Source: an uncultured Fidelibacterota bacterium (GTDB lineage: Bacteria > Fidelibacterota > Marinisomatia > Marinisomatales > UBA1611). Taken from it: DNA of 51,702 nt. The stretch spans positions 109,382 to 161,083 of the forward strand of contig CACEHW010000001.1 in NCBI GenBank assembly GCA_902559415.1, in the 5' to 3' direction. The notes below the pieces were generated by a model. The model did no database searches and was not told where the DNA came from. It was given only the letters and a program-made list of their open reading frames with translations. Made by a program: the position numbers and the translations under genes. How positions within the stretch are numbered: position 1 is the first letter of the stretch; every line of letters starts with the position of its first letter. Positions 34,361-44,251 of the stretch are shown here, one piece after another.

Positions 34361-36766
34361 ATGAAAAAAGTTATATTTTTAATCTCAATTTTTAGTGCTC
34401 TTTTCTCCCAAGCAAATCAAGAGTTCATTTTAAAAGATGTTAAAGTAGAGGGGAATATTGTCTCAACTGAGAATACAATTATCTTTACTTCTGGTCTTAG
34501 AAAAGGATTAAAGGTCTCCTTATCTGAATTTCCTAGAGCGATTAAAAGGTTATGGCAATTAGGATTATTTGATGATGTTCAAATCAAATATGAAGAAGAA
34601 GGTAATGAGATTAGCATCACTCTATTGGTAATCGAATCAAAAGTAATTGGTGATGTTAAGTATAAAGGGAACCGAAAAATTAAAGCCAGTAAGTTTAATG
34701 AAGAACTTGAAATCACTACTGGACAAAGAATTAAGCCTAATATGATTCATGAAAAAATAAAAAAGATGAAATCACTCTATGCTGAAAAAGGATATTTGAA
34801 AGTTGATATTAGAGCAGATTTAGTTGATTCAAAAAATAAGCAAAATATTTTTGATGGGAAGGCTAAGAGTATCACAAAAGATATTGTTTTTACAATCGAA
34901 GAAAATGAAAAAATTAAATTAAGAAATATTTATTTTGAAGGTAATGAAGTTTTTTCAGATTTAAGATTGAGAATGCTAATGAAAGAGACAAAGCAACAAA
35001 GGTGGTATTATTTTTGGCGTACAGCATTTGACAAGGAGAAACTTGAGCTAGATAAAGAAAAAGTAGTTGAATTTTATCATAATAAAGGTCACAGAGACTT
35101 TTCTATTTTATCTGATTCAATTATTTATGATGGCAAAAGTAATTACTTGGATATAGTACTTAATGTTAATGAAGGTGCAAAGTATAAATACAGAGATTTT
35201 ACATTTGAGGGTCAATCATTATACTCTGAAGAAATTTTAGCCAGAGCATTAGGTCTATCTCCTGGAGACAATTATAGTGAAGAAGATTTTTCAAGGGCCG
35301 TTTATGATAGAATGCAAAGTCTTTATATGGACAAAGGTTATATATACAGTAGAATCGAACCAGAAATCACTCCCGTTGGTGAAGATTCTCTTGATGTTCA
35401 CTTTGTAATTGCTGAAAATCATAAAGTTTATATTAGAAATATTGCTATTAGGGGTAATGATAGAACTAGAGAAAATGTAATTAGAAGAATTATGCGGATA
35501 TATCCTGGTGATGTTTTTAATAAAGAAAGACTTTTAAGAACGCATCGTGAAATAATGATGTTGAATTATTTTTCTAACGTGGTTCCTGATGTGGTCCCAG
35601 TTGATGATGACCAGGTTGATATAGAAGTAACTGTTGAAGAGAAATCATCTGGTCAAGCCAATATGAATATGGGTTTTAGTCAAGCTTATGGTGTAACAGG
35701 GGGTGGTGGTTTTTCACTACCAAATTTTAGAGGCAAGGGTCAACATCTAGCTTTGTCTTTTGAGGTCGGAGCAGCTAATTATAATAATACCTATTTTGGT
35801 AGTAGTTATAAACCCCAAAAAAGAGAACGAGCAACAATTAGTTTTACAGATCCAATGGTTAACGATACTAATAATTTATTGAGCGGATCTTTATTTTATA
35901 GTTTTTCTGGAAGGTCTTCAATGTACTATGCTCCTTTAGATATGATAACAAAAGGAGGAAGTTTTAGATGGGGTAGAAGATTTAAATGGCCAGATGATTA
36001 TTTTCGAGGTAGTTGGTCCTTTACAGCACATCAAAGAATTTATGAAGCTGATAACGAAGAGCAACTACAGTTATACACTGGTGGTTTAAATGAAACAGTA
36101 GGTGTAAGTATAACACAATCTATTAGCCGGGATAGTAGAGATCATCCGGAATTCCCAACAATTGGTTCTTTAATGGCAATCAGTAGTAGTATCTCTGGTG
36201 GACCTTTAGGCGGGAATGAAGATTTTCACAAGCATGTATTAAATCTTGAGTGGTACACACCAACAGTTTGGAAATTTGTTTTGATGAGTTCCGTAAAAAT
36301 TGGTGGAATAAAAACATTACCATCTGGTGATAATGAGAGGTCAATGGTGCCATTTAATGAACGTTTTATAATGGGCGGAAGTGGTATGGTATATGGGAAT
36401 CCATTAAGAGGTTATGAAGATAATAGGGTTGGGCCATTAACATCTAGCGGTGGGCCTTTTGGTGGTAATGCATTAATGAAAGTGACATCAGAATTTCGAA
36501 TCCCTTTTTCTGAAAATCCTGTCGTTTATGGAATGCTGTTTGCTGAGATGGGAAATGTATGGATTGAATCTCATTTGCAAGAGAAGTTTAACTTAGCTAG
36601 AATTGGGCCATTAGATTTAAAACGTTCTGCAGGAGTAGGGATAAGATTTTTTATGCCAATGATTGGGAAGCTTGGGTTTGATTTTGGTTATGGATTTGAT
36701 GATCTTAATGGTGATGGCCAAGCGGAAGGATGGAAGTCATCAATTACTATAGGACAACAATTTTAA
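34361..36766 (+). CDS. bamA: Outer membrane protein assembly factor BamA
   Basis: The 801-residue Omp85 protein has a signal peptide (LFS|Q), about five POTRA repeats (about 20-420) and a C-terminal 16-strand barrel. The loop 6 motif appears as NPLRGYED (VRGF/Y type) and the protein ends in Phe (TIGQQF), as a beta-signal should. BamA folds and inserts outer-membrane proteins. The gene is followed by skp after 17 bases. Confidence 0.95.
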   Translation: MKKVIFLISIFSALFSQANQEFILKDVKVEGNIVSTENTIIFTSGLRKGLKVSLSEFPRAIKRLWQLGLFDDVQIKYEEEGNEISITLLVIESKVIGDVKYKGNRKIKASKFNEELEITTGQRIKPNMIHEKIKKMKSLYAEKGYLKVDIRADLVDSKNKQNIFDGKAKSITKDIVFTIEENEKIKLRNIYFEGNEVFSDLRLRMLMKETKQQRWYYFWRTAFDKEKLELDKEKVVEFYHNKGHRDFSILSDSIIYDGKSNYLDIVLNVNEGAKYKYRDFTFEGQSLYSEEILARALGLSPGDNYSEEDFSRAVYDRMQSLYMDKGYIYSRIEPEITPVGEDSLDVHFVIAENHKVYIRNIAIRGNDRTRENVIRRIMRIYPGDVFNKERLLRTHREIMMLNYFSNVVPDVVPVDDDQVDIEVTVEEKSSGQANMNMGFSQAYGVTGGGGFSLPNFRGKGQHLALSFEVGAANYNNTYFGSSYKPQKRERATISFTDPMVNDTNNLLSGSLFYSFSGRSSMYYAPLDMITKGGSFRWGRRFKWPDDYFRGSWSFTAHQRIYEADNEEQLQLYTGGLNETVGVSITQSISRDSRDHPEFPTIGSLMAISSSISGGPLGGNEDFHKHVLNLEWYTPTVWKFVLMSSVKIGGIKTLPSGDNERSMVPFNERFIMGGSGMVYGNPLRGYEDNRVGPLTSSGGPFGGNALMKVTSEFRIPFSENPVVYGMLFAEMGNVWIESHLQEKFNLARIGPLDLKRSAGVGIRFFMPMIGKLGFDFGYGFDDLNGDGQAEGWKSSITIGQQF

Positions 36767-36783: not shown

Positions 36784-37311
36784 ATGGGTATAATGAAGAG
36801 AATAATAATATTATGCGTATTACTAACTGGTATGACCGCTAGTTTAAGTGCGCAATTAAAAATTGGATACATATTGTCAGAAAGAATTCGTGGAGAATAC
36901 GAAGAATTTAAAGAGGCAGAATCTCAGTTACAGCTTGAATATCGAAAAGTACAATTTGAGTTTGACCAAAGGGTTAAAAAACTTGATAGTTTAAAACAAG
37001 ATTATGAAGTTAAAAGGCTTATGTCACTTGATAAAGGTGAGAGTATTAAACAAGAGATAGAGCAGACTGAAAAACAAATCCAAACTTACCAGGCTGAGAA
37101 AGTTGGGCCGCAAGGGGAATTGATGCGCAAACAAGCACAAATGGAATATGATATACTTGGTAAAGTAAAAAAAGCTGTCGATAAAGTAGCTATTAATGGT
37201 GGCTATGATTATATAATTGATGCATCAGTTGGGTTACTATATTATAAACCTAAATATGACCTTACAGATGATGTTCTTCATGAGCTTAGAAAACTAGATA
37301 CAGCAAAATAG
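36784..37311 (+). CDS. skp: OmpH/Skp-family periplasmic chaperone
   Basis: The 175-residue product has a signal peptide cut before Gln (LSA|QLKIGY), a central coiled coil (about 45-125, many Glu, Lys and Gln) and the C-terminal YDYIIDAS block of OmpH. Skp trimers hold unfolded outer-membrane proteins for BamA. AAGGAG (36775-36780) precedes it; ATG at 36784 is close (3 bases) and an in-frame ATG at 36793 is far (12 bases), so either could be used. Confidence 0.88.
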   Translation: MGIMKRIIILCVLLTGMTASLSAQLKIGYILSERIRGEYEEFKEAESQLQLEYRKVQFEFDQRVKKLDSLKQDYEVKRLMSLDKGESIKQEIEQTEKQIQTYQAEKVGPQGELMRKQAQMEYDILGKVKKAVDKVAINGGYDYIIDASVGLLYYKPKYDLTDDVLHELRKLDTAK

Positions 37312-37318
37312 ATAGTAA

Positions 37319-38332
37319 TTGAAGTTTAGTTTAAATGAAATTGCTATGTTCATTAATGGAGCTGTTTATGGCGACTCTACCATTGAGATTTTTGAAGTAG
37401 CTGAAATACAAAATGCTAAAAAAGGCAGTATTACGTTTCTAGGAAATAAGATGTATAATAAATATCTTGAAACTACTTCTGCATCTGCAATGATTGTATC
37501 AGACGAAAAACTAATTAAAGGAAAGAATGGGATAGTAGTAGACAATCCTCAATTGGCGATTGCAAAGGTATTAACTATGTTTTTTCCTGAACAATCTTTT
37601 ATAAAAAAAGTTCATCCTAAGTCTATTATTGATTCATCCGTGAAAATTGGTAAGGATGTAACAATAGAAGCTGGTGCGGTTATAGAAGCTGGAGTGGACT
37701 TAGGAGAAAATACTTTTATAGGTGCTAATGTTTTTGTTGGAAAGAATTCAAGAATTGGGCCTGATTGTAAAATATTTCAAAATGTGGTTATTTATGATAC
37801 TACAATCATTGGAAAGCGCTCAATTATACATGGTTCTGTAGTTATTGGATGTGATGGGTTTGGGTTTGTTCCTGGGGATAATGAACATTTTAAGATACCT
37901 CAAACAGGTAGAGTTATTATAGGGGACGATGTTGAAATTGGAGCTAACACAGTAATTGATAGGGCCACTATTGGAGAAACTATAATAGGAGATATGAGTA
38001 AAATTGATAATTTGGTTCATATTGGCCATAATGTTCAAATTGGTAAAGGATGTTTAATTACTGCTCAAGTTGGTATAGCTGGTAGCACTAAAGTAGGAGA
38101 TAATTGCAAAATGGGAGGGCAAGCAGGGATTGTCCCACATGTTGAAGTTGGTTCAAACTCAATTATTGCAGCTAAATCAGGTGTTACAAAATCCCTTAAA
38201 GGAAATCAAATGTATGGCGGCTATCCAGCTAGGCCAATTAGAGAGCAACATAAAAGAGATGCAGTACATAGTGAAGTTTTATTAATAAAAAAGAAGTTAA
38301 ATAATTTAATTCAAAATTCTAGAAGCAATTAA
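37319..38332 (+). CDS. lpxD: UDP-3-O-acylglucosamine N-acyltransferase
   Basis: LpxD adds the second hydroxyacyl chain in lipid A synthesis. The 337-residue product starts at TTG with MKFSLNEIA, as expected, has the N-terminal uridine-binding domain and then left-handed beta-helix hexapeptide repeats, and carries the catalytic His in NLVHIGHNVQIG (about 240). The C-terminus has GGYPARPIREQHK. No ribosome site is visible; the TTG lies 8 bases after the skp stop. Confidence 0.95.
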   Translation: MKFSLNEIAMFINGAVYGDSTIEIFEVAEIQNAKKGSITFLGNKMYNKYLETTSASAMIVSDEKLIKGKNGIVVDNPQLAIAKVLTMFFPEQSFIKKVHPKSIIDSSVKIGKDVTIEAGAVIEAGVDLGENTFIGANVFVGKNSRIGPDCKIFQNVVIYDTTIIGKRSIIHGSVVIGCDGFGFVPGDNEHFKIPQTGRVIIGDDVEIGANTVIDRATIGETIIGDMSKIDNLVHIGHNVQIGKGCLITAQVGIAGSTKVGDNCKMGGQAGIVPHVEVGSNSIIAAKSGVTKSLKGNQMYGGYPARPIREQHKRDAVHSEVLLIKKKLNNLIQNSRSN

Positions 38333-38335
38333 AAT

Positions 38336-39280
38336 ATGCACAGAAGACAAAGAACTATTAGTACTTCAAAGTCCTGTAAAGGCGTTGGTTTACATACTGG
38401 AGTTGATAGTGTTATAACATTTCACCCTGCTCCTGAAAATTACGGAATTAGGTTTGTGCGGTCTGACATAAGAGATTCACCTGAAATAAAAGCAGATATA
38501 GATCATGTTGTTGATATTTCAAGAGGAACAACTATTGAACAAAATGATGTGCGTATTCACACCGTTGAACATGCCCTTGCAGCAGTTAATGGTTTAAGAA
38601 TTGATAACGTTATGATAGAACTCAATAATAAAGAAACGCCTGTGATGGATGGAAGCGCTAAAGATTTTGTTGGTGCATTATTGGATGCTGGTATAAAAAA
38701 ACAGAAAGAAAAAAGAAAAGTTTTAAAGATAACACGTGCTGTTAATTATACAGATTACTACAGAGACATAGACATTCATGTCATACCCAGTGATAACTTT
38801 AGAGTCACTTTTTTAGTTGAATATCCTTTACCTGCATTAGGTACACAATATGAAGCAATTTATAATATGGAAGAAGATTTTGCTTTCGAAGTTGCTCCGG
38901 CAAGAACATTTTGTTTTTTAAGTGAAATAGAGATGCTTAAAGAACAGGGACTAATAAAAGGTGGAGGATTAGATAATGCTCTAGTAATTATTGATAAAAA
39001 AATTGATAAAATTGAAATTAATCGATTGCGAGATTTATTCGGTATAGAGGAAGCAATAGCCAAAGGCTCTAATGGTCTTTTAAATGGTAAGATTCTTCGT
39101 TTTAAAAATGAACCTGTTCGCCATAAAACTCTTGATTTAATTGGAGATATGGCCCTTCTTGGTGTTCCAATCATTGGTCATATAACTGCTGCAAGAGCTG
39201 GGCATGCGAGTAATGTTGAATTTGTAAAAAAATTAAAAAAAGTTTATGCTAAAGAATTAGAAGAATTAGGAAAAAGGTGA
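38336..39280 (+). CDS. lpxC: UDP-3-O-acyl-N-acetylglucosamine deacetylase
   Basis: LpxC is the zinc deacetylase for the first committed step of lipid A. The 314-residue product has VGLHTG near the N-terminus, the zinc-binding HTVEHALAA motif (His about 79), GGLDNALVI, the second zinc site HKTLDLIGD (about 263-271) and GHITAARAGHASN with the catalytic His. It begins 4 bases after the lpxD stop. Unlike the LpxC-FabZ fusion of most Bacteroidetes, fabZ is a separate gene 6 bases later. Confidence 0.97.
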   Translation: MHRRQRTISTSKSCKGVGLHTGVDSVITFHPAPENYGIRFVRSDIRDSPEIKADIDHVVDISRGTTIEQNDVRIHTVEHALAAVNGLRIDNVMIELNNKETPVMDGSAKDFVGALLDAGIKKQKEKRKVLKITRAVNYTDYYRDIDIHVIPSDNFRVTFLVEYPLPALGTQYEAIYNMEEDFAFEVAPARTFCFLSEIEMLKEQGLIKGGGLDNALVIIDKKIDKIEINRLRDLFGIEEAIAKGSNGLLNGKILRFKNEPVRHKTLDLIGDMALLGVPIIGHITAARAGHASNVEFVKKLKKVYAKELEELGKR

Positions 39281-39286
39281 TAAGGT

Positions 39287-39751
39287 ATGAGTGAAAGTTT
39301 GATTAAAAATGCCTATAATATTCAAGATATTATTAAAATTCTGCCTCACCGGTATCCTTTCGTATTAATTGATAGGATTGATGAAGTAAAACAAGGTGAA
39401 TACGTTAATGCGATTAAGAATGTCACGATTAATGAACCTTTTTTTCAAGGACATTTCCCAGGACAGCCTGTTATGCCAGGAGTTTTGTCTCTAGAGTCGA
39501 TGGCTCAAGCTACAGCATTTCTTATGTTGCATGAATTAGATGACCCTCTTAAAAAAAACATGTTTATCTCGGGGGTAGATAAAGTGCGTTATAGACGCTT
39601 GATTGTCCCTGGTGATACTCTTAACATAAATATTAGGTTAGTATCAAAGAAACTTACCTTATATAAATTTGATGGTACTATAAAAATTAATGGTCAGTTA
39701 GCTGTACAAGCAAAAATATCATCAAATTTAGTTGATCGTGTAGAGGTTTAA
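39287..39751 (+). CDS. fabZ: 3-hydroxyacyl-ACP dehydratase FabZ
   Basis: The 154-residue hotdog-fold enzyme dehydrates hydroxyacyl-ACP and competes with lipid A synthesis for its substrate. LPHRYPFVLIDR holds the catalytic His and GHFPGQPVMPGVLSLESMAQ holds the catalytic Glu. An AGGTGA is well spaced from the ATG. It is between lpxC and lpxA, and its last codons (GAGG at 39743-39746) appear to serve as the ribosome site for lpxA. Confidence 0.96.
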   Translation: MSESLIKNAYNIQDIIKILPHRYPFVLIDRIDEVKQGEYVNAIKNVTINEPFFQGHFPGQPVMPGVLSLESMAQATAFLMLHELDDPLKKNMFISGVDKVRYRRLIVPGDTLNINIRLVSKKLTLYKFDGTIKINGQLAVQAKISSNLVDRVEV

Positions 39752-39752
39752 T

Positions 39753-40526
39753 ATTTCACAAAATATTCATTCTACAGCTGTTGTTGATTCTACAGTCCAA
39801 CTAGGTGAAAATATTTCTATTGGAGCATTTACAGTAATTGAACCTGGGGTGGTGATTGGAAGAGGCACATCTATTGGCAATAATGTAACAATTTCAACAG
39901 GTACTACAATTGGAACAGATTGTACTATTTTTCATTCTTCATCAATTGGTGCCATCCCACAAGATTTAAAGTATAATAATGAAGAAACTTTTTTACATAT
40001 TGGTGATCGTACTGTAATAAGAGAATTTGTTACGGTAAATAAAGGTACCTCAGCATTAGGTAAAACAGTTATCGGTTCAGATTGCTTATTAATGGCCTCT
40101 GTACATGTAGCTCACGATTGTATCGTTGGTAATCATGTAATCATGTCTAACCTCACTACGCTAGGTGGGCATGTAAACATTTCTGATTGGGTTATTTTAA
40201 GTGGTGGCGTTTTAGTACACCAGTTCTGTAATGTTGGGGCACATGCTTTTGTGGGCGCCGGTGGTTTAGTAACACAAGATGTTCCTCCTTTCATTTTAGC
40301 TGCGGGGTCTCCTCTAGAATATAGTGGTATTAATAATGTTGGGTTAAAACGAAGAGGATTCTCTATGCAAGATAGAAAAGATATTAAGAATATTTACAAT
40401 ATCTATTTCAGATCAAAAAGTAATCGCAGCGATAATTTGGTAAAGATAAAAAATGAATTGAGTTCTCAAAAAAACTCCGAAACCATAATCAATTTTATTA
40501 AACATAGTGAAAGAGGAATAATATAA
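39753..40526 (+). CDS. lpxA: UDP-N-acetylglucosamine acyltransferase (probable ATT start)
   Basis: LpxA starts lipid A synthesis by O-acylating UDP-GlcNAc. Hexapeptide repeats run from the first residues, with catalytic His in VHVAHDC, VHQFCNVGAHAFVG and a C-terminal GLKRRGFS. The first ATG/GTG/TTG in frame is a GTG at 39849, which would remove about 32 residues and the first helix coils. The frame is open back to a TAG at 39741. An ATT at 39753 gives (M)SQNIHSTAVVDST, matching usual LpxA N-termini, gives 257 residues (family about 255-262), and has GAGG six bases upstream. I therefore annotate the ATT. Confidence 0.9.
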   Translation: MSQNIHSTAVVDSTVQLGENISIGAFTVIEPGVVIGRGTSIGNNVTISTGTTIGTDCTIFHSSSIGAIPQDLKYNNEETFLHIGDRTVIREFVTVNKGTSALGKTVIGSDCLLMASVHVAHDCIVGNHVIMSNLTTLGGHVNISDWVILSGGVLVHQFCNVGAHAFVGAGGLVTQDVPPFILAAGSPLEYSGINNVGLKRRGFSMQDRKDIKNIYNIYFRSKSNRSDNLVKIKNELSSQKNSETIINFIKHSERGII

Positions 40527-40530
40527 AATA

Positions 40531-41214
40531 ATGAAAACCATATTAGGGTTTTTTTGTTTTTCCTTTTCGATAATTTTTTGTCAGAGTGCCAATTTTAGTT
40601 ATGAAGAGATTGCTGAACAGAACATACGAGGACACGCTGAAAAAGTTGCGACGTCTTCTTCTTTATGGCTTTCAGGCCACATTAATATTCTAAGATTAAA
40701 TAAATACAAATTATATTTAAAGTATGGTCAATCTTTATTTTTAAAAGAGATCAATGGTTTAAATTGGGTTTTACCTAGTTTTCAGTTTGGTTTAAAACCT
40801 ACAGATAATTTAATGGTATCAGGAAAGTTTTTTGGGGTTCACTTGGATGAAGAATCTCCTCAAATAATAGGGGCCGGCTTACATTATATTTCTGGCGAAG
40901 ATCAAGATTGGGTTGTTTCATTTCAAAAATCCGCATTAAACGGTATTAATGATTTTAGGGTGGTATCAACTTTGTTTCATATTGATAAACGATTGCAAAA
41001 ATCTTTCTATGATATTTTTTTAGGGTTCGGAATTAATTATTACATTAGTAACTCATATTTTTCTTCAATTGAATTACCGAAAAAAATTGAAGGAGATTTA
41101 AACTGTATTAGTATAGCTATCATTATTCCTTATAAAACTTTTAATGTATCTGCATCATCACAGATAAGTTCAAAGAATCAACTTTTTCAATTAGCTTTAG
41201 TTAAAGGTTTTTAA
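40531..41214 (+). CDS. Unrecognised exported beta-rich protein in the envelope cluster
   Basis: I do not recognise this 227-residue protein. It has a signal peptide (IFC|Q) and beta-rich alternation in the mature part (LKYGQSLFL, FQFGLKPTDN, GAGLHYI, FLGFGINYY), with C-terminal Phe (LVKGF). This resembles a small outer-membrane beta-barrel. It lies between lpxA (4 bases) and dxr (2 bases), so it is co-expressed with lipid A and isoprenoid genes; the position suggests a role in the outer membrane, but nothing in the sequence shows what. The Cys at the predicted -1 position is not a lipobox. Confidence 0.68.
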   Translation: MKTILGFFCFSFSIIFCQSANFSYEEIAEQNIRGHAEKVATSSSLWLSGHINILRLNKYKLYLKYGQSLFLKEINGLNWVLPSFQFGLKPTDNLMVSGKFFGVHLDEESPQIIGAGLHYISGEDQDWVVSFQKSALNGINDFRVVSTLFHIDKRLQKSFYDIFLGFGINYYISNSYFSSIELPKKIEGDLNCISIAIIIPYKTFNVSASSQISSKNQLFQLALVKGF

Positions 41215-41216
41215 TA

Positions 41217-42362
41217 ATGAGAAAAATATCAATATTAGGTTCAACTGGTTCAATAGGTGTAAATGCTCTTAGTGTGATAAGGAATATGCCAGAGAAGTTT
41301 AAGATTGTACACTTAACGGGAAACCTTAATTACACAAAAATGATCGATCAGGGGAAAGAGTTTTTACCACAAACCATTACAATGATAGATGAAGAAGCTG
41401 CTGAAAAAGTTAAAATAGGATTGCAGGGTTTTAATATTAATATATTTTCAGGCAGAAATAAGTTATTAGATCATTCTGGAGATAGACAGGTGGATCTTGT
41501 ACTAAATTCATTAGTAGGAGCATCTGGAATGGAGCCAACTCTCGCAGCATTGCAAAATGGTATTGATGTAGCTTTATCAAATAAAGAAAGTTTAGTTGTC
41601 GCAGGCGATCTTATTTACAGTGCAATGAAAGAATCAGGTGCAAATTTATTCCCAGTTGACAGTGAACACTCAGCTATATGGCAATGTTTATTTGGTGAAA
41701 ATGAAAAAGATATAGAAAAAATAATTCTCACTGGGAGTGGTGGCCCATTTAGAACAAGACCAATTGATACATTTTCATCAATTACTAAAAATGATGCTCT
41801 AAAGCATCCAAATTGGGTAATGGGTCAGAAGATAACTATTGATTCAGCGACAATGATGAATAAGGGTTTAGAAGTGATTGAAGCCCATTGGTTGTTTAAT
41901 ATAGATTCTTCCAATATAGAAATTGTTGTTCATCCGCAATCAATAATCCATTCAATGGTGCAATTTAAAGATGGTTCAGTTAAAGCACAATTAGGTGTGC
42001 CTGATATGAAAATTCCTATACAATATGCTTTAACGTATCCTAGACATTTCTCATCAAATTGGGAAAGGTTAGATTTTAAAGAAGTTAGTGATCTAACATT
42101 TGAAGCTCCAAACTTTGAGCGATTTCCTTGTCTTTCACTAGCCTATGATGCTTTAGAAAAAAAAGGATCTTCCCCAGCTGTTTTGAATTTTGCTAATGAC
42201 TATAGTGTATTTAGATTTCTTAAAGATGAAATTAAATTTACAGATATCCCAAAGATAATAGAGTCAGCTATGAAAAATCATGAATGGGATGAAAACCCAA
42301 ATCTAAGTAACCTTAAAGACCTTGATTTTTGGACGAAAGATTTTGTAAAGAATTTTGATTAA
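41217..42362 (+). CDS. dxr: 1-deoxy-D-xylulose 5-phosphate reductoisomerase
   Basis: Dxr makes MEP from DXP with NADPH, feeding isoprenoid and undecaprenyl synthesis. The 381-residue product has the NADPH-binding ILGSTGSIG (about 5-13), ALSNKESLV near 120, the metal/substrate site VDSEHSAIWQCL near 150, GSGGPFRT, and DSATMMNKGLEVIEAHWLF. It lies 2 bases after the unknown barrel gene and is followed after 37 bases by rseP, the order seen in many bacteria. Confidence 0.98.
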   Translation: MRKISILGSTGSIGVNALSVIRNMPEKFKIVHLTGNLNYTKMIDQGKEFLPQTITMIDEEAAEKVKIGLQGFNINIFSGRNKLLDHSGDRQVDLVLNSLVGASGMEPTLAALQNGIDVALSNKESLVVAGDLIYSAMKESGANLFPVDSEHSAIWQCLFGENEKDIEKIILTGSGGPFRTRPIDTFSSITKNDALKHPNWVMGQKITIDSATMMNKGLEVIEAHWLFNIDSSNIEIVVHPQSIIHSMVQFKDGSVKAQLGVPDMKIPIQYALTYPRHFSSNWERLDFKEVSDLTFEAPNFERFPCLSLAYDALEKKGSSPAVLNFANDYSVFRFLKDEIKFTDIPKIIESAMKNHEWDENPNLSNLKDLDFWTKDFVKNFD

Positions 42363-42399: not shown

Positions 42400-43569
42400 A
42401 TGATATTTATTTGGTCAACAGCTCTCGTTATCGGGATACTTGTTTTTGTACATGAATTGGGTCATTACCTTGCGGCGAGATCAGTTGGTGTAAGAGTAGA
42501 AAAGTTTTCTATAGGGTTTCCTCCTAGGTTTTTCACTATTACTTCAATTGATGGTGGGTTCGATATCACTTTTTTCTTTTTTCGGTATAAGGGAGGTAGT
42601 TTAAAATGGCTTCCTATCTTTAGTACTCACCTTGGAATCAAAGGAAGAAAAGGAACGAATACAGAATATGTAATTGCATTAATACCGCTTGGTGGATATG
42701 TTAAAATGGCTGGATCGCTTGATGAAAGTTTTGATACTGAGATTACTGGTTCTTCAGACGAGTTTTCTAGTAAAACGGTACTTCAAAAAATATGGATATT
42801 GAGTGCAGGAGTTATAATGAATATTATAACTGCATTTGTGATTTTTACAGGGATTACTTTATTTCAAGGAATCCCTGAAGCAAATGAAGGATCATTTATA
42901 GGCGCTTTTGCTCAAAATAGTCCAGCTAAAATAGCTGGTTTAGAGATTGGAGATGAAATCACAAGTATTAATGGTATTGAAGTATATAATTGGAGCGACT
43001 TAGTAAAAATATTAAGACCAATTCCAAATACAGGAGTAGAAATTGAAGTTCTTAGAGGTGATAAAAATTTTAATTTTTCTTTTGATACATACGAAATACC
43101 GATACCAAGTGAGAGCGGTATAGATACTATCGGAGGTATTGGTATTTCACCTCAGTATGTTTATTTACCAGCCTCATTCAATAATTCTGTATCAAGAGGA
43201 TTTTTTAACACGATTAGAAGTTTTGGATTAATAACACTCACATTTAAAATGCTAGCTAGTGGCCAAGCAACACTAAAAGATCTTGGTGGTCCAATTATGA
43301 TTGGACAAATCGCTGGTGAGACGGCAAGAGCTGGATGGATACCTCTCTTTAATTTTATGGCACTTATTAGTATTAACTTAGCATTTCTAAATATTCTGCC
43401 AGTACCTGGTCTAGATGGTGGTCATATATTTATAATTTTAATAGAAACGATAATTAGGCGTCCTCTAAGTATTAAGTCCAGGATGGTGATTCAGCAAATT
43501 GGTATGGTTCTATTATTAGGGCTAATGTTCACGGTAATGTTTAATGATATAGGAAGGCTATTTAATTAA
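42400..43569 (+). CDS. rseP: RseP/site-2 metalloprotease
   Basis: This M50 intramembrane protease has HELGH (about 19-23) in the first helix and the third ligand motif NILPVPGLDGGH near 335. A single PDZ domain lies at about 165-240, one fewer than E. coli RseP, which fits the shorter length of 389. It cleaves signal-anchored proteins such as anti-sigma factors. It closes the envelope cluster and its stop overlaps the convergent DUF3108 gene by 8 bases. Confidence 0.95.
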   Translation: MIFIWSTALVIGILVFVHELGHYLAARSVGVRVEKFSIGFPPRFFTITSIDGGFDITFFFFRYKGGSLKWLPIFSTHLGIKGRKGTNTEYVIALIPLGGYVKMAGSLDESFDTEITGSSDEFSSKTVLQKIWILSAGVIMNIITAFVIFTGITLFQGIPEANEGSFIGAFAQNSPAKIAGLEIGDEITSINGIEVYNWSDLVKILRPIPNTGVEIEVLRGDKNFNFSFDTYEIPIPSESGIDTIGGIGISPQYVYLPASFNNSVSRGFFNTIRSFGLITLTFKMLASGQATLKDLGGPIMIGQIAGETARAGWIPLFNFMALISINLAFLNILPVPGLDGGHIFIILIETIIRRPLSIKSRMVIQQIGMVLLLGLMFTVMFNDIGRLFN

Positions 43570-44251
43570 CTTCTTCTAATTCAAGATTTAACGACCCAAA
43601 CTTCATTTTTAAATTTATAATTATTGGTAGTTTATCCTTATCAGAAACCCATATAGTTATTTTACCAGCATTTTTAAATGGTTCCCCATTTATTTTTTTT
43701 GGCCAAATCTTATTAGCATAAAATTTACCAAACGCAGTTTCTACCTCTACTTTTTTGTCAGTGAAAAATTTTAACGGTGTCACTTTTTTATTATCGACGA
43801 CTTGAATTTTATAATTTGAATCAGAAGGAAAATCTAGCGTTCTAAAATAATATATTAACGAATATGGGTTAAATATCTCACCTTCATAGGATATGCTATC
43901 TTTCTTATAAATGAAAATATTATTTTTATGATCAAAAGAGGAAAGAGAATTCTGTTTATAACTCCCCTCTCTTATTTTTTTTTCAACTTTCAGTGGTTGC
44001 CATGTATTTAAATCAACATCAACAATTATTTTATCATTTATTGGGAAAATATATTTCAATGATGGTTTTGATTTAGCTTTGAATTCAATTCTTAGAATGT
44101 CTTGGTTTTCGATGTTTTTAATTTTTTTTGATTTTAGAGTTGCTGTAGCAACATCTATGCCACCAAAAGAAGCGCTATAGAGCAACTTTTCATCCCATGA
44201 TCGATCATTTGCAAAAATAGCCGAAAAAATTAAAAGAAATAAAATCCTCAT
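43562..44251 (-). CDS. DUF3108 exported protein
   Basis: The 229-residue product has a short signal peptide with predicted cut IFA|N, followed by a DUF3108-type beta-rich body (EKLLYSASFGGIDVATATL, FNPYSLIYYFRTLDF, and a WVSDKDKLPI end). The family is exported and of unknown function. Its start overlaps the tsaC stop by 4 bases, and its 3' end overlaps rseP. Confidence 0.8.
   Translation of the reverse strand: MRILFLLIFSAIFANDRSWDEKLLYSASFGGIDVATATLKSKKIKNIENQDILRIEFKAKSKPSLKYIFPINDKIIVDVDLNTWQPLKVEKKIREGSYKQNSLSSFDHKNNIFIYKKDSISYEGEIFNPYSLIYYFRTLDFPSDSNYKIQVVDNKKVTPLKFFTDKKVEVETAFGKFYANKIWPKKINGEPFKNAGKITIWVSDKDKLPIIINLKMKFGSLNLELEEVN

Follow-up and report, generated by a model that had tools for sequence, protein, structure and literature searches.

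The window analysed here, a stretch of 51,702 nucleotides from an uncultured Fidelibacterota bacterium, carries an operon whose products, assigned with NCBIfam, run in the order BamA, Skp, LpxD, LpxC, FabZ, LpxA, the product of an unassigned open reading frame (ORF), Dxr, and RseP. The ORF (40531–41214, forward strand) opens with an ATG and encodes 227 residues ending in LVKGF. It begins 4 bases beyond the end of lpxA at 40526 and stops 2 bases short of the dxr start at 41217, a spacing given by a first-pass annotation of this DNA and confirmed from the coordinates. The features of the locus are as follows.

34361–36766, forward strand: bamA, by NCBIfam
36784–37311, forward strand: skp-like chaperone gene, a weak match (31.2 bits to NF008047, under its equivalog cut-off)
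37319–39751, forward strand: lpxD, lpxC and fabZ, which with lpxA make up the block missing in a clade without lipid A genes
39747–40526, forward strand: lpxA (open frame), by NCBIfam, with a likely ATT start near 39753
40531–41214, forward strand: gene for a putative outer-membrane barrel protein of 227 aa, from the ORF, its homologues and a structural model
40531–40584, forward strand: signal peptide, residues ~1–18, from a helix at 2–16 in the model, with a putative cleavage site
40615–40671, forward strand: N-terminal helix, residues 29–47, from the model, with a probable location in the lumen
40711–41211, forward strand: predicted ten-strand transmembrane beta-barrel, residues 61–227, from the model, structural matches and hydrophobicity alternation
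41217–42362, forward strand: dxr, the most constant downstream neighbour of the barrel gene
42400–43569, forward strand: rseP (M50 site-2 protease), by NCBIfam

Beyond the operon, a gene for a DUF3108 protein (43562–44251, reverse strand) lies convergent with rseP.

Scans of the 227-aa protein against Pfam and NCBIfam returned no family match, and the protein is as nameless as the first-pass annotation had it. Literature searches in PMC found no paper on the gene, a search of viral contigs gave no result, and within its own genome, ~65% complete, the ORF has no second match. It is nonetheless a real gene, because homologues occupy the same place in other genomes and its dN/dS is 0.12–0.22, compared with 0.06–0.14 for LpxA and Dxr over the same three unsaturated pairs. 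Identity to three congeners amounts to 55–56% for the barrel protein versus 75–78% for LpxA and Dxr. Judged from these comparisons, the barrel protein is changing faster than its neighbours, yet under purifying selection, and such fast evolution is as expected for surface proteins.

The first-pass annotation had staked its proposal on conservation of the gene at this position in relatives, and such conservation was found. Homologue and genome searches covered the window's phylum, and a scan of public contigs reached close relatives only, at 12 loci. A single-protein search gave matches in 47 of 61 genomes, the window's own counted in, and in the 30 loci fetched first the ORF is flanked by lpxA and dxr in every case where the contig extends far enough; the exceptions, one locus without lpxA and one without dxr, are both contig ends, and the homologues that the annotation had suggested seeking at the same locus are thus in place. 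A profile search recovered the family in 85 of 130 genomes of the order and in 66 of 199 genomes sampled across the phylum. Gene coordinates, a more sensitive test of position than a profile match, were read wherever lpxA and dxr lie on one contig and strand, which made 113 genomes of the order assessable. The interval between the two genes measures 550–1369 bases in 92 of these (nearly all 650–870; the 1369 of G089 is an overestimate, as the dxr match is partial there) and is closed to 9–21 bases in 21. Thirteen of the 92 interval-bearing genomes lacked a profile match, and all 11 intervals fetched from among them hold an exported-looking ORF of 222–250 aa. Outside the order, a gene-sized interval occurs in 69 of the 70 genomes that have both lpxA and dxr coordinates among the matches listed, on the same contig (500–900 bases in 60, more in 9, and 51 in 1). 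The fetched intervals hold exported-looking ORFs of ~190–260 aa, with the sole exception of one f16 locus (L102), where the interval contains no ORF of at least 150 aa. The C-terminal Phe to which the first-pass annotation drew attention is present in the window protein and common within the order, where the last residue of some members is His, Arg, Tyr or another; it is not universal in the family, many members outside the order ending in Leu. In f19 and f24, an additional gene separates lpxA from the barrel gene (L108 989–1804, L115, L138, L139), and the insert in L108 is a lipoyl ligase by Pfam.

Whether the products found at this position form one family was judged from profile–profile comparisons. 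The window family matched members from f22, f25, f27 and f28 with a probability of 98.4% (E 4e-15, 213 columns); by group, links were strong to f25, f27, f28 and f19 and fair to f18, f22, f24 and f17, and f16 showed a short link to the order (40 columns, probability 55.2%). Pooled profiles joined f16–f18 (96.4%), f24 (95.6%) and f21/f26 (87.1%) to the main group, as well as f23 at 78.9%, or 93.9% once f29 was added, with a PorV-like control at 1.1% or below. On these profiles, the order and several other families are firmly homologous and the remaining ones probably so, with the identical gene position as added help for the latter. The f23 protein is linked to the order's family by pooled profiles, position and predicted layout, without direct sequence similarity, and half of the dissociation from lipid A genes described below depends on this link. 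This is a phylum-wide, fast-evolving and unnamed family representing a known kind of protein, and a widespread, mostly uncultured phylum gains with it a conserved, previously unannotated, predicted outer-membrane protein family.

An AlphaFold model built from 43 aligned sequences (pLDDT 90.7, pTM 0.85) comprises a signal helix, a helix at residues 29–47, and ten strands, and so provides the barrel that the first-pass annotation had suggested looking for by structure prediction. Gln18, at the end of the signal peptide, is the residue in 34 rows at its alignment column. Along the strands, the in/out alternation of hydrophobicity reaches 1.75 against a shuffled mean of 1.08, with 26 of 5000 shuffles as high as the observed value, and small and polar residues are more frequent at inward than at outward positions. 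The earlier description of a 227-residue exported, beta-rich protein is borne out by the model and this alternation. With a signal peptide, an even-stranded barrel and alternating hydrophobicity all present in the prediction, the protein has the marks of an outer-membrane beta-barrel, and the conserved barrel at the lpxA–dxr position is probably an outer-membrane protein.

The nearest solved structures include a designed barrel, TMB10_163 (Z 15.9, rmsd 2.2, 133 aligned residues), OpcA (Z 14.4, rmsd 3.3, 165 aligned) and the omptin Pla (Z 13.6, rmsd 3.5, 172 aligned). OpcA, the omptins OmpT and Pla, and designed TMB10 share the strand number of the window protein and superpose on its barrel, but they differ from it in that the extra N-terminal helix belongs to the window protein. 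OpcA has 9% identity to the window protein in the structural alignment, and when PDB sequences were searched with the family profile, none matched at E up to 10. Omptin proteases have conserved catalytic Asp and His residues. The window family has the ten strands of an omptin but conserves no such residues, and an assignment to these proteases was rejected; across the 43 aligned rows no position is an invariant His, Ser, Asp or Glu. Asn93 alone is invariant there, in a turn predicted to be periplasmic, and this argues against a fixed active site.

The helix finds its counterpart in autotransporters. In the barrels of NalP, EspP, Hbp and EstA, helix and barrel superpose together with those of the window protein; NalP aligns over residues 28–227 (193 residues, rmsd 3.5) and EspP over 27–227 (200 residues). 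Autotransporter barrels such as NalP and EspP hold a helix in the pore, and because helix and barrel superpose on them jointly, the helix at 29–47 probably lies inside the barrel lumen, as judged from the alignment ranges. A second model, of the ORF from a clade designated g69 (signal helix, helix, ten strands; pLDDT 85.8, 13 sequences), aligns on autotransporter barrels from residue 22 and has the same nearest structures as the window protein. Autotransporter translocator barrels have twelve strands and a passenger domain; the window protein, with ten strands and no passenger domain, was not assigned to them.

PagL, PagP and LpxR resemble the window protein in being small outer-membrane barrels but have 8, 8 and 12 strands, respectively, which sets them apart from its ten. 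These lipid A deacylases and acyltransferases have invariant catalytic His or Ser residues. None of the 43 family members gave a Pfam match to PagL, PagP or LpxR at E up to 1, and this identity was rejected on that count, on the absence of invariant His or Ser, and on the independence from lipid A genes. DUF6588 (PF20230) was matched by 1 of the 43 members, at 25.8 bits over residues 57–214 against a cut-off of 27 bits, and the window protein itself has no Pfam match. This assignment too was set aside, as the best member falls under the cut-off and the profile–profile probability is 1.5%, and at most 5.8% against the pooled groups. DUF6588 proteins are longer, about 300–400 aa, and are encoded by a separate gene within the same genomes as the barrel family. 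This uncharacterised, larger, exported protein occurs in none of the five listed genomes from the window's family and in 55 of 120 sampled phylum genomes (L141, L142, L148–L176).

Whether a genome has the barrel gene appears not to depend on the neighbouring lipid A genes. Lipid A genes are kept and the barrel gene is lost, with the interval closed, in all 19 assessable f15 genomes and both g32 genomes, all within the order, and in G131 (f20, outside the order), which retains lpxA and dxr; lpxC is present in all four gene-loss genomes checked (G056, G083, G085 and G131). The f15 genomes are small, at 0.4–1.0 Mb assembled. In a Dxr tree, g32 groups with a genome of f7 that has the gene (support 99/92) and f20 with f25 and f28, which also have it (support 98/86), and the g32 and f20 losses are separate because the tree places each next to gene-bearing relatives; f15 lies on a long branch, and the count of separate losses comprises g32 and f20 only. 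Losses in these three lineages show that the barrel gene is dispensable, and such clean losses, with lpxA and dxr kept, contradict the essentiality that the first-pass annotation had read into the neighbourhood.

The converse is seen in clade g69 of f23. In all 10 of its genomes, which are 66–93% complete, lpxA has no match among the matches listed and lpxC has no match. In seven (L178, L180, L182, L183, L184, L185 and L186) BamA, Skp, the ORF and Dxr are encoded on one contig, and from that place lpxD, lpxC, fabZ and lpxA are all missing. As to the others, only the end of the ORF is seen in G169, at a contig edge; the contig of G198 begins inside dxr; and G194 has lost the ORF as well, ~209 bases being left between skp and dxr. 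In this last remnant (L179 2626–2834), a terminator-like hairpin and T run follow skp where the barrel gene would be, and dxr may there be uncoupled from bamA–skp. Two further genomes without an lpxA match among those listed were left out of the evidence, G175 carrying part of lpxC at the end of a contig and G185 a contig that begins inside dxr. On its gene content, the g69 clade looks like an LPS-less lineage within f23. The constant neighbours of the barrel gene are, on its upstream side, BamA/Skp and, on its downstream side, Dxr; lpxA is an optional one. As the gene is lost where lpx genes are kept and kept where they are gone, the role of the barrel does not need lipid A. The first-pass suggestion of lipid A transport or quality control fails on the same observations, 21 genomes of the order and G131 having lost the gene and g69 having kept it without lpxA and lpxC. 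Of the conserved envelope role proposed there, the envelope part stands, as a probable outer-membrane barrel at a conserved position, and the lipid A part does not. The neighbourhood alone was misleading, in that lipid A genes surround the barrel gene, yet its retention and loss follow a course separate from theirs.

Computation establishes the gene, its conserved position, its predicted fold and its dissociation from the lpx genes. The best explanation of them, to which we give a probability of about 0.5, is a ten-strand, helix-plugged, BAM-assembled barrel that is independent of lipid A and serves at the surface or in stabilising the membrane. The protein would be produced alongside the BamA/Skp assembly machinery, directed to export by its signal peptide, and presumably folded by BAM into the outer membrane, where the N-terminal helix would most likely be tucked into the lumen, leaving the barrel plugged rather than freely open. 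There it may have a surface or membrane-stabilising role, would neither act on nor need lipid A, and could be dropped from streamlined genomes. A narrow channel and an adhesin are also conceivable for a ten-strand barrel, and OpcA, second among the structural matches, is an adhesin.

A small diffusion channel or substrate-specific porin gated by the N-terminal helix is a tentative alternative. The inward side of the barrel is more polar and charged, and porins figure among the structural matches (NanC, KdgM and a COG4313 channel); however, a ten-strand pore is narrow and is probably filled by the helix, and the named operon neighbours include no substrate-related genes. Also possible, if doubtful, is a phylum-specific, LPS-independent factor in outer-membrane biogenesis or stability, a ten-strand barrel corked by its helix and made along with BamA and Skp. 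Such a barrel would support the outer membrane with or without LPS and for that reason would survive the loss of the whole lpx block from a clade. An OpcA-like surface adhesin or receptor under host or phage pressure seems unlikely: both models match OpcA at Z 14.4 and the sequence changes fast, but the predicted inter-strand loops of the window protein are short, and a constant place in a housekeeping operon would be unusual for an adhesin. Least probable is a factor for the transport, modification or quality control of lipid A, such as a deacylase or acyltransferase barrel, which the tight placement directly 3' of lpxA in most of the phylum had favoured and which the double dissociation, together with the lack of an invariant His, Ser, Asp or Glu, largely refutes.

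For the preferred lipid A-independent barrel, the double dissociation and the clade that appears to have given up lipid A synthesis are the part that specialists might follow. That clade, without lpxA and lpxC but with BamA, Skp and the barrel, offers a natural system in which to ask how an outer membrane holds together in the absence of LPS. The phylum has a cultured member, Fidelibacter multiformis IA91T (PMC11652737), and localisation is therefore directly testable.

A minor observation concerns the start of lpxA. No ATG, GTG or TTG lies near its proper start (window 39747–39765), the GTG at 39849 being internal. An ATT at the expected start is kept in five of six genomes of the genus (L001–L004 and L006 compared), and the start codon of lpxA may, from this comparison, be ATT.
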